DNA of 12,227 nt from Ilumatobacter sp. (GTDB lineage Bacteria; Actinomycetota; Acidimicrobiia; Acidimicrobiales; Ilumatobacteraceae): NCBI GenBank assembly GCA_029263275.1, contig JAJCXU010000527.1, positions 1 to 12,227 on the forward strand, read 5' to 3'. Of the stretch, positions 5,146 to 10,014 are shown one piece after another. A program made the position numbers and the translations under genes. Each line of letters begins with the position of its first letter. The first letter of the stretch is position 1. Below the pieces are notes generated by a model. The model did not search any database. It saw only the letters and a program-made list of their open reading frames with translations, and had not been told where the DNA came from.

Positions 5146-5151
5146 TACCGT
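5146..5151 (+). promoter_or_regulatory. Putative -10 element of rmuC
   Basis: TACCGT matches TAnnnT and ends 7 nt before the ATG at 5159. This placement, seen at several genes in the window, supports that ATG rather than the GTG at 5150, which overlaps the hexamer itself. Confidence 0.4.
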
Positions 5152-5158
5152 GGGCACC

Positions 5159-6466
5159 ATGTTGATCGTTGTTGTCCTTCTCGGCCTCGTGTTGGCCGGG
5201 TGCGCCGCCGCCGCGGCCTATTTCTTCGCGCTGCGGCGAGCTGAGCAACAGGCCGCTTCGCAACTTGCCGATCAGCTCGGTGCCCAGTCGCTCTCCAACG
5301 AGTCGCTGCAGCTCTCCATCGATTCGGCCGTCCAGAGCGCGGTCGCGGCGGTGCGCGATCAGGCGAGCGCGGAACGCGATGCCGCCGTCGCTGCGGCCCT
5401 CGAGCAGAGCGCCGTGCTCCAACGCGAGCAGTTGGGTGCCAAAGCATCACAAGTGCAACAGCACGCCAGCGCCGATCTGGCGTCGAAGAAGGACGTCATC
5501 GACAACCGCCTCGACCAGGTGCATGGCGAGATGCGCACTGAGCTCACCAAGCTGACCGACATGGTCAATGCGCTGGGCCGAACGAATGCCGAGAAGTTCG
5601 GCCAGGTCGAAACGTCGCTCAAGGCGCACGCCGACGTCGCCGCTGCGGTCGCGGAGTCCGCGCAGGCGTTGCGTACCGCCATCGCCAACCCGCAGGCGCG
5701 TGGGCAGTGGGGCGAGCGCATGGCCGAAGACGTGCTGCGCATGGCTGGCTTCATCGAGAACATCAACTACACCAAGCAAGGCCAGATCGACGGTGCCACG
5801 GGGCGCCCGGACTACACGTTCAACATGCCCAAGGGGCACGCCCTCTACATGGACGTCAAGTTTCCGATGGCTTCCTACGTGCGCTACCTCGAAGCCGGCA
5901 CCGACGCCGAACGTGAGATGCATCTCAAGAACTTCTTGCGTGATGTGCGCATGCGCGTCAAGGAGTTGGCCAAGCGCGACTACGGCAATGTCGGCGACCA
6001 GCAGGCCGTCGACTACGTGTTGCTGTTCATTCCTAACGAGCAGCTCACCGGCTTCATCCACGAGCACGACCCCGGCCTCCTCGACGATGCGATGGTCCAA
6101 CAGGTCGTGATGTGTTCGCCGCTCACGCTGTTCGCGTTCGTCGGGATCATCCGCCAGGCGTTCGACAACTTCATGATCGAACAGACGAGCGACGAGATCC
6201 TGCAGCTCATCAGCAAGTTCGGCACGCAGTGGAGCAAGTACTCCGACCAAGTCGACAAGGTGAAGAAGCGTTTCGAAGGTGTGGAGAAGGAGTTCGAGGC
6301 CCTGGCCGGCACCCGCCGGCGTGCCCTCGAACGGCCGCTGCGCGAACTCGATGGCATCCGCCAGGAGCGCAATCTGCCAGTCGATGGCGAGCTGTTCGCG
6401 CTGCCACGCGACGCTGATGAGAACGAAACCCCCCCTGGCGGGGCCATCCGCCAACTTGGTGCCTGA
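5159..6466 (+). CDS. rmuC: RmuC-family DNA recombination protein
   Basis: A 435-residue RmuC homologue. In E. coli, RmuC influences recombination and inversion at short inverted repeats; its biochemical activity is poorly defined. Residues 2-24 form one transmembrane helix, so the rest faces the cytoplasm. Residues about 25-150 are a long Ala/Gln/Glu-rich coiled coil. The RmuC core follows, with GQWGE around 182-186, then a PD-(D/E)XK-like nuclease arrangement: D218 in RPDYTF, and D232-V-K234 in MDVKFP. The tail is helical and charged. An LAGC box near residue 15 looks like a lipobox, but hydrophobic residues continue past the Cys and there is no basic N-region. The ATG at 5159 is chosen because the membrane helix begins at once and TACCGT lies 7 nt upstream. 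It precedes the toxin-antitoxin/xseAB block by 53 bp, forming a DNA-processing neighbourhood. Confidence 0.93.
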   Translation: MLIVVVLLGLVLAGCAAAAAYFFALRRAEQQAASQLADQLGAQSLSNESLQLSIDSAVQSAVAAVRDQASAERDAAVAAALEQSAVLQREQLGAKASQVQQHASADLASKKDVIDNRLDQVHGEMRTELTKLTDMVNALGRTNAEKFGQVETSLKAHADVAAAVAESAQALRTAIANPQARGQWGERMAEDVLRMAGFIENINYTKQGQIDGATGRPDYTFNMPKGHALYMDVKFPMASYVRYLEAGTDAEREMHLKNFLRDVRMRVKELAKRDYGNVGDQQAVDYVLLFIPNEQLTGFIHEHDPGLLDDAMVQQVVMCSPLTLFAFVGIIRQAFDNFMIEQTSDEILQLISKFGTQWSKYSDQVDKVKKRFEGVEKEFEALAGTRRRALERPLRELDGIRQERNLPVDGELFALPRDADENETPPGGAIRQLGA

Positions 6467-6483
6467 GCACCCAACAACTCGCC

Positions 6484-6510
6484 TGTAGCACAGTCAACCA
6501 CCGTGCTACA
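6484..6510. promoter_or_regulatory. Perfect inverted repeat, likely toxin-antitoxin operator
   Basis: TGTAGCAC (6484-6491) and GTGCTACA (6503-6510) are perfect 8-bp reverse complements with an 11-nt spacer; arm centres are 19 bp apart, close to two helical turns. The right arm overlaps the inferred -10 of the antitoxin gene (6507-6512) and the left arm falls in the -35 zone. Phd/YefM antitoxins typically bind such palindromes over their own promoter, so autorepression is the natural reading. No protein-DNA evidence is available here. Confidence 0.6.
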
Positions 6511-6512
6511 CT
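6507..6512 (+). promoter_or_regulatory. Putative -10 element of the toxin-antitoxin-xseAB unit
   Basis: TACACT matches TAnnnT and ends 7 nt before the ATG at 6520, predicting a leaderless transcript. I see no comparable promoter before xseA or xseB, so this is the most likely promoter for all four genes. Confidence 0.45.
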
Positions 6513-6519
6513 TGCCGGA

Positions 6520-6798
6520 ATGGAGACCAACGTGTCCGTTCGCGACCTTCGCAACCGCACCGCCCAGGTCCTTGACGAGGTCGAGGCTGGCGACACCGTG
6601 TACATCACCCGCAACGGCGAACGGGTCGCTGTGCTGACGTCTCTCACGCAGGCCCGTCATCCCGCGAATGCCCGGTTGCTCGCGATTCTCGACGCTCAGC
6701 GCCCGTACGACAGCGGCCTCGCGGCAGACCTGGACCAGTGGAAGCGCGACGACCTCGAAGCCGAGGCCCGCAAAGCCGAGCTCTTCGAAGACGAGTGA
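6520..6798 (+). CDS. Phd/YefM-family antitoxin
   Basis: A 92-residue antitoxin. The N-terminal half is the Phd/YefM DNA-binding fold: SVRDLRN (a variant of the usual VsefR start), then TAQVLDEVEAGDTVYITRNGERVAVL, which covers residues about 14-39 and carries the typical GD.VYITRNG..VAVL strand pair. The C-terminal half (about 60-92) is acidic and helical (DQWKRDDLEAEARKAELF), as expected for the part that wraps round and blocks a toxin. Its stop overlaps the toxin start by one base (TGATG). A perfect inverted repeat covers its promoter, which suggests autorepression, with conditional cooperativity likely. The partner is a PIN nuclease, so it works as VapB although its fold is Phd-type; such pairings are known. 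Confidence 0.9.
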   Translation: METNVSVRDLRNRTAQVLDEVEAGDTVYITRNGERVAVLTSLTQARHPANARLLAILDAQRPYDSGLAADLDQWKRDDLEAEARKAELFEDE

Positions 6799-7244
6799 TG
6801 GCGCTACTTCTCGACACGTCAGCGGTCATTGGCCTGGTTGAACGACGATCGATCGCGCTTCGCGACATTGTTGCGCGACACTCCGGAGCGGTGGCAATCT
6901 CGACCATGACCCTCGGCGAACTCGAACGTGGTGTCCGGGCGCGTCCCACGCCGCTCACTCAACACACGCTCGATGTCGCGGCCGGAACCATGCAGCAGGT
7001 GCCGATCGATGAACTCGTCGGCCCTGCATGCTTCGGCCACATCGCATCTTCAACGAGCCGCCGCGTCGGAGGCATCGACTGCTGGATTGCCGCGACAGCA
7101 GTCATCAACAACCATGAACTTGTCACCCAGGATCGACGACTCGCGACCGAACTCAACCAGGTCGATTGGTCACTCACCGCCTGGAACGCACCGGAAGTCA
7201 TCTACGTGCCCGTGAACGACAACGCAGATCCCGAGTCCACATGA
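6798..7244 (+). CDS. vapC: PIN-domain ribonuclease toxin (VapC family)
   Basis: A 148-residue PIN-domain toxin; VapC proteins cut tRNA or rRNA at specific sites and stop translation. The acidic metal-binding residues are all present: D6 (LLLDTSAVIGL), E41 (LGELERG), D94 (GGIDCWIAATA) and D112 (TQDRR), so it should be active. It is slightly longer than usual, with a tail after the last PIN strand (about residues 128-148). The frame is open further upstream, but the ATG at 6798 starts exactly at the first PIN strand and overlaps the antitoxin stop by one base. Its own stop overlaps the xseA start by 4 bp (ATGA), so toxin and exonuclease VII are translationally coupled. That is an unusual downstream neighbour for a toxin gene. 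The cleavage target is unknown. Confidence 0.9.
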   Translation: MALLLDTSAVIGLVERRSIALRDIVARHSGAVAISTMTLGELERGVRARPTPLTQHTLDVAAGTMQQVPIDELVGPACFGHIASSTSRRVGGIDCWIAATAVINNHELVTQDRRLATELNQVDWSLTAWNAPEVIYVPVNDNADPEST

Positions 7245-8620
7245 GCCAGCCTGCGTTCGACTTCGGCGACGAGATGCCCGAAGAAGTCGCCGATCCCACG
7301 TACACCGTCGGTGAGTTGGCGGAGGCAATCAACGATCAACTCCGCCGCGGCTTCCGTGACGGCATCTGGGTGCGCGGCGAAATTAGCGGCCTCCAGAACC
7401 GAGGACCACACACCTACTTCTCCTTGGTGGAAGACGGTGACGCCGGCAAGGCCGTCATGAACGTGCAGCTGTTCGCACCGGCCAAGGCCCGCCTGGCACC
7501 GATGCTGCGCAAGTTCCGCCTTGAACTGCGCAACGGCATGAAGGTGCGGATTCATGGCCATCTCGACTTCTGGGCCCAGGGCGGTCGGCTCGGGTTCAAG
7601 ATGGCCAGCCTCGACCCGAAGTACACGATCGGCGACATTGCACAGTCACGCGACGAAGTCATCCGGCGCCTCGTTGCCGAAGGGCTGATGGACACCAACA
7701 AGCGACGCCCGATGTCGCCGGTGCCACTTCGCGTCGGTGTGGTCACCAGCGTCGGCACCGCCGCCTGGCATGACTTCCACGACGAACTCGCCCAGAGCGG
7801 ATTCGGATTCCGTCTTGTCGTCGCCGACGTCCGCGTCCAGGGCGACCTCGCGGAGAACATGGTCACCGCAGGAATCGCGCGGTTGGCGATGCTCGGAACG
7901 CTCGATGCCATCGTGGTCATCCGTGGCGGTGGCGCCCGCAACGAACTTGCCGTCTTTGATTCGGAGAAGATCGCTCGGATGATTGCCAACTCACCCGTGC
8001 CGGTGCTCACCGGCCTGGGCCATGAGGTCGACCGGAGCGTGGCCGACGACGTTGCGCACCTTGCCCTCAAGACCCCCACCGCCGTGGCCGGCGAACTCCT
8101 CGGCCGAGTCGCTGCCTACACCGCCAACGCCGAGCAGACGTTTGCCGCGATCCTGCAGCGCAGCACCACCGCGCTCGCCGAAGCCACCGGCGAACTGTCC
8201 GACGTCGGCCATCGCATCGCGCGCCGCACGCACTCCGCTGTCGAGCGCGCCGACGAGCGATTGTCGATGCGAGTCGACCGGCTGAACCGAAGCGGCCCAG
8301 CTGTCCTCGACCGAGCCACCGAACGACTCGACCGGGTCGCACTCCGACTCCTCGAGCGACCAACCGACATTCTCGACCGAGCCAGTCAACGCCTCGACGT
8401 CCTCACCGCCCGAGTTGGCGGCGTCGACCCGGCCGTCCAGATCGCTCGGGGCTGGACCATCACGCGCGACGCATCGGGCACCATCGTTCGATCCGTGGCC
8501 GACCTGGACATCGACGACGTCCTCACCACCACGCTCATCGACGGCTCCGTCACCAGTACGGTCACGGCCGCCGTCCCCACTGCTGACGACACCACCATCA
8601 TCAACGAGGACTCACCATGA
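7241..8620 (+). CDS. xseA: Exodeoxyribonuclease VII large subunit
   Basis: A 459-residue catalytic subunit of exonuclease VII, which degrades single-stranded DNA from both ends in repair and recombination. E. coli XseA is of similar size. The N-terminal OB fold (about 20-120) contains YTVGELAEAIN, WVRGEISGL and HTYFSLVED. The nuclease domain contains the invariant RGGGARNEL at 228-236 and TGLGHEVDRSVADDVA starting at 257. The C-terminal part is a long helical arm, including three consecutive 22-residue repeats (335-400) of pattern [DE]RAx[EQ]RL; in the family this arm carries the XseB subunits. The ATG at 7241 is chosen over an open frame reaching 7166 because the shorter N-terminus fits the family and forms an ATGA overlap with the toxin gene. 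It overlaps xseB the same way. No promoter of its own is visible. Confidence 0.96.
   Translation: MSQPAFDFGDEMPEEVADPTYTVGELAEAINDQLRRGFRDGIWVRGEISGLQNRGPHTYFSLVEDGDAGKAVMNVQLFAPAKARLAPMLRKFRLELRNGMKVRIHGHLDFWAQGGRLGFKMASLDPKYTIGDIAQSRDEVIRRLVAEGLMDTNKRRPMSPVPLRVGVVTSVGTAAWHDFHDELAQSGFGFRLVVADVRVQGDLAENMVTAGIARLAMLGTLDAIVVIRGGGARNELAVFDSEKIARMIANSPVPVLTGLGHEVDRSVADDVAHLALKTPTAVAGELLGRVAAYTANAEQTFAAILQRSTTALAEATGELSDVGHRIARRTHSAVERADERLSMRVDRLNRSGPAVLDRATERLDRVALRLLERPTDILDRASQRLDVLTARVGGVDPAVQIARGWTITRDASGTIVRSVADLDIDDVLTTTLIDGSVTSTVTAAVPTADDTTIINEDSP
8243..8440 (+). repeat. Three tandem 66-bp (22-codon) repeats within xseA
   Basis: Residues 335-356, 357-378 and 379-400 of XseA align without gaps. 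Each starts [DE]RA followed by [EQ]RL, and each ends in a Pro-containing turn. At DNA level the 13-mer CTCGACCGAGCCA recurs exactly 66 bp apart (8306-8318 and 8372-8384). The units are diverged elsewhere, so this is an old internal duplication forming the helical arm, not a recent slippage array. Confidence 0.6.
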
Positions 8621-8823
8621 CCGACACGCCCGTACCCGGCTACGCCGCAGCACTCACCGAACTCGATGCGATTCTGCGCGAGTTGGAGGGGTCCGATGTC
8701 GATGTCGATCACTTGGCAGAGCGCGTGTCGCGGGCGTCCGAACTCATCTCGCTCTGTCGCGACAAGATCTCCAACGCGCAGATCAAGATCCAGGAAGTCA
8801 CCGCCGATCTCGACACCCCATAG
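8617..8823 (+). CDS. xseB: Exodeoxyribonuclease VII small subunit
   Basis: A 68-residue helical-hairpin protein. Several XseB copies bind the arm of each XseA and are needed for exonuclease activity and for restraining the toxicity of free XseA, as known for E. coli. The family pattern is visible: YAAALTELDAILRELEGSDVDVDHLAERV (first helix and turn, about 9-37), then ASELISLCRDKISNAQIKIQEV (second helix). The start overlaps the xseA stop as ATGA, so stoichiometry is set by coupling. Its TAG stop lies inside a palindromic element (8822-8854). Confidence 0.94.
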   Translation: MTDTPVPGYAAALTELDAILRELEGSDVDVDHLAERVSRASELISLCRDKISNAQIKIQEVTADLDTP

Positions 8824-8854
8824 TTACGCATGGGGTCAGGCCCCTTTCGTAACT
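8822..8854. repeat. REP-like palindrome, element 1 (after xseB)
   Basis: A 33-nt near-perfect palindrome. The outer arms AGTTACG/CGTAACT pair over 7 bp, then come two mismatches around an A-T pair, then GGGG/CCCC closing a TCAGG pentaloop (CCTGA on the minus strand). It begins at the second base of the xseB TAG stop. It aligns without gaps to element 2 behind crtI, with a compensatory A-T to G-C change in the outer stem. There is no T-tract. It may stabilise the mRNA end or act as a weak terminator. Confidence 0.65.
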
Positions 8855-8941
8855 CTGCGAGTCACGCCGGGCGACCGGTGCCGTCAGATATTGACGCATC
8901 GAAGTCGGAGGACGACACAGCAGGCCTGGGCTGAGCACAAG

Positions 8942-8947
8942 TACCAT
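8942..8947 (+). promoter_or_regulatory. Putative -10 element of crtE-like gene
   Basis: TACCAT matches TAnnnT and ends 8 nt before the ATG at 8956. The stretch TACCATCG followed by TTCATG is shared with the crtB upstream region, hinting at common control. The rest of the 132-bp gap holds element 1 and a stray TTGACG (8891-8896) too far away to be its -35. Confidence 0.4.
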
Positions 8948-8955
8948 CGGCCTTC

Positions 8956-10014
8956 ATGTCCAAGGCCCCGGCTTCACTTCTGCAGTTGGCCACGCGCGTC
9001 GAGGCCCGACTCGATGAGTTCCTCGCTGTAGAGCGCGACCGGTGGGCGGATCTCGACAGTGAATTGGCCCAACCAATCAACGAGATCCGCCGCCTCGTTC
9101 TGTCTGGTGGGAAGCGACTGCGCCCTGCATTCTGCCATTGGGGCTTCGTCGGCGCCGGTGGCGGCGACACGGAACGAGCCGACATCGATGCCGGCGCCGC
9201 CCTCGAACTGATGCATGCAATGGCCCTGTTCCACGACGACGTCATGGACGACGCCAACTCACGGCGAGGACAACCGACCACCCACACCGTGGCCGCAGCA
9301 CAACATGCCGAGCACGGCTGGGCTGGCGAGTCACGCCGCTTTGGTGAGGGTGTCGCGATCCTCGTCGGAGATTTGGCGTTCGTGTACGCCGACCAGATGT
9401 TGGAGGGCGCCAGTCTCGAAGCGACCAGAATCTGGAACGAGCTGCGGATCGAACTCAACATCGGGCAGTACCTCGACATCCTCGGCAGCGTCAGCCGCAC
9501 CCGGGACGTGGCGAAGGCCGAACGAATCTGCCGCTACAAATCGGGCAAGTACACGATCGAACGACCACTGCACCTTGGCGCCGTGCTGGCCGCACCCGAA
9601 CGGGCCGACGAACTGTTGCCACATCTCAGCAACTACGGCTTGCCATTGGGCGACGCCTTCCAAATGCGCGATGACGTAATGGGAGCGTTCGGCGACGAAG
9701 CTGTCACGGGCAAGCCGGTCGGTGGCGACCTGATCGAGGGCAAGCCCACTCCGCTACTCGCACGCTCCACTCGGCGAGCGACCGGCGCCCAACGCGAGGT
9801 GCTCGAACTCGTCGGCGACCCTGACCTCGACGCCGACGGCGTGGCCAGAATCCAGCAGGTCATCGTCGACACCGGTGGCCTCGACGAACTCGAGGCACAC
9901 ATCAGCGCGCTCACCGAGTCCGCTGTCGCCTCGCTCACCGCAGCGCCCATCACCGCGCTCGCCAAGACTGAACTGACGCAGCTGGCCGAATTCGTCAGCC
10001 AACGAGCCGTCTGA
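8956..10014 (+). CDS. crtE: Geranylgeranyl diphosphate synthase (CrtE/IdsA-type polyprenyl synthetase)
   Basis: A 352-residue trans-isoprenyl diphosphate synthase that should supply C20 GGPP to the adjacent phytoene synthase. Motifs: GGKRLRP at 51-57, first aspartate-rich motif DDVMD at 94-98 with SRRGQ after it, and second motif DDVMG at 239-243 followed by AFGD. A DDxxG second motif before FGD is usual in actinobacterial GGPP synthases. The residue five before the first motif is Met, bulkier than the Gly of the synthase at 35-1033, which fits a shorter product. The assignment to carotenoid supply rests on its position directly before crtI and crtB. The ATG has no Shine-Dalgarno sequence but a TACCAT hexamer 8 nt upstream. 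A perfect 13-bp palindrome follows its stop codon. It could alternatively feed other C20 pathways. Confidence 0.88.
   Translation: MSKAPASLLQLATRVEARLDEFLAVERDRWADLDSELAQPINEIRRLVLSGGKRLRPAFCHWGFVGAGGGDTERADIDAGAALELMHAMALFHDDVMDDANSRRGQPTTHTVAAAQHAEHGWAGESRRFGEGVAILVGDLAFVYADQMLEGASLEATRIWNELRIELNIGQYLDILGSVSRTRDVAKAERICRYKSGKYTIERPLHLGAVLAAPERADELLPHLSNYGLPLGDAFQMRDDVMGAFGDEAVTGKPVGGDLIEGKPTPLLARSTRRATGAQREVLELVGDPDLDADGVARIQQVIVDTGGLDELEAHISALTESAVASLTAAPITALAKTELTQLAEFVSQRAV

Follow-up and report, generated by a model that had tools for sequence, protein, structure and literature searches.

Does a toxin-antitoxin pair standing directly in front of the exonuclease VII genes also come to govern their expression? 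The question is raised by an Ilumatobacter sp. contig (C527; JAJCXU010000527.1 of assembly GCA_029263275.1), which was analyzed over its whole length of 12,227 bases and is referred to here as the window; it belongs to a draft genome of 3.54 Mb in 672 contigs, estimated to be 70% complete. In the window, genes for a Phd/YefM-family antitoxin (phd) and a PIN-domain toxin (PIN) are followed by xseA and xseB, which encode the large and small subunits of exonuclease VII. An earlier interpretation made from the DNA letters alone (hereafter, the sequence-only reading) had described these four genes as overlapping in series, and the overlaps were confirmed by reading, by the list of open reading frames (ORFs) and by a direct check (TGATG at 6796-6800, ATGA at 7241-7244 and ATGA at 8617-8620). 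We favor the explanation, with a probability of roughly 60%, that the pair displaced the promoter of xseA, and that xseAB would now be transcribed mainly from a Phd-repressed promoter, plus any read-through from rmuC, the next gene upstream. Exonuclease VII is, on the evidence of these sequences, probably made under toxin-antitoxin control now. The features concerned are as follows.

5150..6466, + strand: rmuC, the upstream neighbor and possible source of read-through (Pfam RmuC, E 6.7e-65)
6484..6510, no strand: palindrome TGTAGCAC-N11-GTGCTACA, which covers part of the -10 and may be the Phd operator; other phd genes also carry its half-sites
6507..6512, + strand: TACACT, putative -10 of a leaderless phd transcript
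6520..6798, + strand: Phd/YefM-family antitoxin, 92 aa (PF02604, TIGR01552)
6798..7244, + strand: PIN-domain (VapC-like) toxin, 148 aa, with its TGA inside the xseA start (PF01850)
7241..8620, + strand: xseA, exonuclease VII large subunit, 459 aa (TIGR00237, PF02601, PF13742)
8617..8823, + strand: xseB, exonuclease VII small subunit, 68 aa (TIGR01280, PF02609)
8822..8854, no strand: hairpin directly 3' of xseB with a dispersed core, possible transcript end (fold z -2.44)

All four proteins score above the cut-offs of their family models. The antitoxin matched PhdYeFM_antitox (PF02604) with an E-value of 3.7e-11 and 43.1 bits (cut-off 29.8), and TIGR01552 with 42 bits (cut-off 20.8), while the toxin matched PF01850 with an E-value of 2.3e-10 and 41.5 bits (cut-off 23.6). 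Residues D6, E41, D94 and D112 of the toxin, which we take to be the catalytic acids, were invariant in all nine aligned sequences. Since the toxin scored below the cut-offs of the NCBIfam VapC equivalogs (NF047863, 33.4 bits versus 140; NF047959, 20.1 versus 80), we call it PIN or VapC-like. The adjacent exonuclease VII genes both exceeded their equivalog cut-offs (XseA, TIGR00237, 290.9 bits versus 180; XseB, TIGR01280, 43.7 bits versus 35).

The site before xseA in relatives

The sequence-only reading had pointed to the synteny of the pair and xseA as the thing to examine, naming absence of the pair from all close relatives, together with lack of a co-transcript, as what would speak against a joint unit; the first of these was found, as neither phd nor PIN precedes xseA in any of the nine congeners. 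In six of them (G001, G003-G007), the next gene upstream of xseA is rmuC. The other three (G002, G008, G009; loci L012, L007, L011) carry an insert of ~800 nt between rmuC and xseA, which was considered as a second toxin-antitoxin pair and rejected, as it holds an ORF of 230-233 aa that we read by eye, without a family search, as an alpha/beta hydrolase.

The same picture emerged across the family. Matches to xseA were found in 192 of the 221 family genomes, the window's own included, and the xseA loci of 83 of the 191 relatives with a match were examined, 82 of them with at least 300 nt of upstream sequence and 77 with at least 1000 nt. Phd and PIN models matched before xseA in none of the 82 relatives with at least 300 nt upstream, the window's own locus being the only match; these models were built from relatives of the window's Phd and PIN, such that pairs of other families would escape them. 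A same-strand rmuC was present in the upstream flank in 39 of the 83 loci, lying within 250 nt of xseA in 31; it was on the opposite strand in one and was not detected in the flank in 43. The Phd-PIN pair before xseA is a local novelty.

The pair is not the sole occupant of this gap. Besides the hydrolase-like ORF, a GNAT acetyltransferase gene lies between rmuC and xseA in four loci (L154, L159, L166, L172). In all four, xseA has an ATGA start and is not preceded by a -10-like element, and in three (L159, L166, L172) the GNAT stop falls within the xseA start. These loci represent the same kind of capture, by an unrelated gene. The presence of unrelated genes in this gap, in three congeners and four further loci, weakens the sequence-only reading.

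Putative promoter elements before xseA and phd

To compare the sequence before xseA, we used the 57 relatives in which the start codon could be aligned (33 GTG, 24 ATG), having dropped 26 of the 83 loci where the aligned codon was no start codon or the upstream sequence was too short. As a guide to ATG or GTG starts, the first letter of database XseA proteins was considered and abandoned, for P0057 begins with M and its locus (L005) begins with GTG. A -10-like element has its end 6-9 nt before xseA in 46 of the 57 relatives, counting both of its forms, although these genomes are related and the counts are not independent. An A...T pair with its T at -6 to -9 was found in 38 relatives, compared with 1 to 9 of 57 in ten control windows; 8 further ones have a TTGAAT form that ends at -8 or -9 and was spotted in the data before it was counted. 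Positions -6 to -9 are where the last T of the -10 of a leaderless gene is expected.

The four nearest congeners (XseA 75-77% identical) share GTGAGCCA as the first letters of xseA, with TGATTGAATCGAG in front. The motif TGATTGAAT at an xseA-like distance from RTG occurs in all nine congeners at 1-3 copies each (18 in total, 4 of them at xseA), and there is no copy at this distance in the window's genome or in the reversed control. The A...T form is kept before xseA in G002, G008 and G009 despite the hydrolase-like ORF in front. From its position and conservation, we infer that the element is a promoter. The window has neither the A...T nor the TTGAAT form before xseA, and the earlier statement that no TANNNT is visible there, leaving the antitoxin promoter as the only evident one, held.

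That promoter candidate is TACACT at 6507-6512; it ends at position -8 relative to the phd ATG, and 6467-7241 contains no other TANNNT. In the genome as a whole, TANNNT-N6-ATG occurs 276 times, compared with 161 in the reversed control. For M. tuberculosis, the usual -10 motif is described as TANNNT and the transcripts of toxin-antitoxin pairs as mostly leaderless (PMC3898074). The palindrome that the sequence-only reading had placed at this promoter, with half-sites GTAGCAC and GTGCTAC, is real and overlaps the TACACT; a perfect 8-nt inverted repeat with a spacer of at most 20 arose in 229 of 20,000 Markov-1 randomized copies of the gap between rmuC and phd.

The half-sites also recur at other phd genes. 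Both were present at 22 of 69 distinct phd upstreams from the family and the order, and at least one at 42 (the window included in each count), whereas 5000 random pieces of xseA loci gave 4 and 6 matches, respectively; the window's own locus (L001) is part of the control pool and is perhaps the source of the 4 double matches, and the half-site sequence had been picked out in the window and a handful of loci ahead of the larger count. Neither exact half-site was found at the remaining 27 upstreams. The distance between half-site starts varies: ~10 bp is common, and the window has 18. Autoregulation is expected of Phd-type operons (PMC3920265), and the recurring half-sites lend comparative support to autoregulation by Phd through this putative operator.

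We therefore propose, as a model, that the Phd-PIN pair entered the rmuC-xseA gap in an Ilumatobacter-like lineage and replaced the leaderless promoter of xseA, whereby xseAB would have become the distal part of a toxin-antitoxin operon. Transcription of xseAB would then start mainly at the antitoxin promoter, with any rmuC read-through providing a basal supply. Phd, with the toxin as co-repressor, would hold the leaderless promoter down via the GTAGCAC/GTGCTAC operator, and loss of antitoxin or an excess of toxin would derepress the operon, so that xseAB would rise too. Derepression under these two circumstances is described for Phd-Doc (PMC3920265).

Distribution of Phd and PIN relatives

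Relatives of the toxin were found in 16 of the 221 family genomes, and relatives of the antitoxin in 63 of these and in 102 of 397 order genomes (query P0022), the window's own genome counted each time. A search of genome contigs with a single PIN protein gave no relative, and one with a PIN alignment gave 8 loci (33-41% identical); viral contigs gave no PIN relative. A second Phd-PIN pair, 38-41% identical, lies in the window's own genome (G000 C432, 6190-6842, minus strand; L047), where the same operator half-sites stand 22 nt apart and xseA was not found. The components thus circulate, and their position before xseA is rare. As an observation on the antitoxins themselves, the DNA-binding half is nearly constant among proteins P0011-P0025, with C-terminal tails of two or more dissimilar kinds, as though one regulator had been combined with changing toxins.

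Judged by equal contig sizes, three metagenome contigs seem to carry both xseA and a close relative of Phd. The size of the longest contig per cluster was the linking criterion, and three of 19 Phd clusters matched when set against the 120 XseA clusters that were listed out of 500: P0016 with XseA P0037 (13,973 bp reported for both), P0022 with P0031 (3,092 bp, two contigs each, same source) and P0025 with P0059 (4,578 bp, same source). On the 3,092-bp contig, the two genes would be at most about 1.5 kb apart, if linked. None of the three sizes is among the contig sizes of the 10 PIN proteins found. Compared with the window's Phd, P0022 and P0025 keep the DNA-binding half (50 and 46 of 58 identities) and have an unlike toxin-binding tail (8/29 and 8/30), while P0016 retains more of the tail (17/29). 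Four other XseA relatives (80-82% identical, on contigs of 39,551 to 1,449,591 bp) had no Phd entry of equal size among the matches listed, so the association of Phd with xseA is patchy. Placed on a 40-row XseA tree, in which the state of 22 rows is unknown, the rows that carry the pair or a linked Phd (four in all) imply a minimum of two gains or losses. These data raise a further idea, which we consider doubtful: that Phd cassettes were placed before xseAB more than once, or long kept there, in the Ilumatobacter lineage, with the DNA-binding half conserved and tail and toxin exchanged, such that the Phd-repressed exonuclease VII promoter would be what was selected, and not the toxin. A toxin-antitoxin module would in that case have become a DNA-repair switch.

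The contig sizes also bear on whether the locus is an artifact, i.e., a pair wrongly joined to xseA within a metagenome bin. The fragmented and incomplete state of the draft would permit such a chimera. It is nevertheless highly implausible, given that rmuC on one side and xseA, xseB and a prenyl synthetase gene on the other stand in congener order, that Phd P0011 and PIN P0003 both report a 2250-bp contig, and that Phd and XseA relatives have equal contig sizes in the three cases above.

Gene overlaps, read-through and known systems

Four-nucleotide ATGA overlaps are often read as selected coupling, and the pair, xseA and xseB had been interpreted as a possible stress-response unit. However, xseA starts with xTGA in 46 of the 57 relatives without the pair, a start that is common because the codon after it often begins with GA or with AG-like letters such as AGC. 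With such a native start, any upstream gene in the right frame ends within the first codons of xseA without selection for overlap. The PIN stop appears from this comparison to be borrowed from the native start of xseA; the ATGA is no sign of selected coupling, and the gene overlaps here are not beyond chance. Counting ORFs that overlap xseA as coupled genes was dropped, since overlapping ORFs of at least 90 aa turned up at 19 of the 47 xTGA starts (the window's among them), more than can be taken for genes.

Coupling of translation may be real all the same, its origin being accidental. There is no Shine-Dalgarno (SD)-like 4-mer before phd, PIN or xseA, and there are SD-like 4-mers (GAGG/AGGA) before xseB. 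Lacking such a 4-mer, unlike xseB, and also a -10-like element, xseA probably depends for its translation on ribosomes that finish the PIN gene.

A selected stress-response unit, freeing toxin and exonuclease VII together on purpose so that translation is slowed and DNA processed at the same time, would fit the co-directional overlaps, the possible persistence in the three other contigs and the toxicity of XseA overexpression in E. coli that is cited in PMC11077951. That toxicity, which the sequence-only reading had invoked for free XseA, stands as cited and is not linked to this locus by any observation made here; xseB is present and overlapping, so free XseA is not expected. Further, the pair is absent in all nine congeners, the overlap is accounted for by the native xseA start, and the toxin-binding tail differs in two of the three linked contigs. 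A stress unit rather than chance adjacency is therefore unsupported and, in our estimate, quite improbable, and we do not claim a dedicated stress-response function as the purpose of toxin-antitoxin control over exonuclease VII.

Several observations weigh against control of xseAB by the pair. Only 53 nt separate the end of rmuC from phd, both genes having the same orientation, and a consensus scan of 6000-9100 predicted no + strand terminator, so read-through from rmuC could supply xseAB alone; the sequence-only reading was right that xseA has no visible promoter of its own, and overlooked this read-through when it named the antitoxin promoter as the only evident one. The -10-like element deviates from TANNNT in many relatives, and 11 of the 57 lack both of its forms and still have xseA, so xseA may do without it, or it may be missing where other promoters do the work. 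Lastly, of 88 Phd/PIN loci from the family and order surveys (L031-L088, L121-L150; best matches, most reaching ~1.5 kb on each side), the only three in which tblastn detected xseA are copies of the window's own locus.

Passive insertion would accommodate these points: the gap occasionally takes up genes, xseAB live mostly on rmuC read-through, and toxin-antitoxin regulation has no relevant effect. The hydrolase-like ORF and the GNAT gene in the same gap agree with this, as do the GNAT loci that likewise start with ATGA and lack the element, the missing terminator prediction after rmuC, the overlap that comes free with the xTGA start, and the absence of the pair from congeners. Yet xseAB are separated from rmuC by the phd promoter with its palindrome, which probably exerts some influence, barring a very weak promoter, and in the three other cases xseA and a Phd relative seem to be on one contig. 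We regard passive insertion as possible, if the less likely account, and retain displacement of the xseA promoter as the preferred one.

Among known systems, S. aureus mazEF-sigB is alike in that a type II pair lies directly upstream and transcription reads through into the downstream operon (PMC3920265). It differs in its toxin and antitoxin families and in having a sigma factor downstream, where the window has a nuclease; moreover, its promoter is described as not autoregulated, with a weak terminator between the parts (PMC3920265), whereas the window has overlapping genes and a Phd-type palindrome over the -10. In E. coli mazEF-mazG, a further gene is cotranscribed behind the pair, as is proposed for xseAB in the window, and MazG is said to take part in controlling the pair itself (PMC3920265 for both statements on E. 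coli). The window pair resembles other Phd/YefM-PIN type II pairs in placing the antitoxin first, the toxin overlapping it and the palindrome over the -10, as at C432, and differs in running on into xseAB. We know of no link of XseAB to the control of a toxin-antitoxin pair. As in other exonuclease VII operons, both subunit genes are adjacent and overlap; what differs is the absence of the -10-like element before xseA. In a search of open-access papers on toxin-antitoxin systems together with xseA or exonuclease VII, no title or abstract opening dealt with such a pair before xseA. We place the pair among the Phd-PIN pairs as a new member and regard its arrangement with xseAB as a new form of the toxin-antitoxin-led operon, a kind already known.

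The locus offers a before-and-after case, with a toxin-antitoxin pair where relatives keep the probable promoter of a housekeeping repair nuclease and with the pair-free relatives as controls. The old question of whether chromosomal toxin-antitoxin promoters come to regulate other genes is thereby testable at one locus, which also illustrates that ATGA overlaps can arise free when the downstream gene begins with xTGA.

Downstream, a polyprenyl synthetase gene begins 132 nt 3' of xseB, and the 12-kb contig carries two such genes (35-1033 and 8956-10014). The loop of the hairpin just 3' of xseB, at 8832-8844, is a copy of GGGGTCAGGCCCC, a dispersed palindromic core with 33 copies in the genome (this one and 32 others) and none in the reversed control. 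Several copies form opposite-strand pairs with a spacing of 44 bp in two pairs and of ~0.1 to 1 kb in others, resembling repetitive extragenic palindromes (REP) or the ends of miniature inverted-repeat transposable elements (MITEs).

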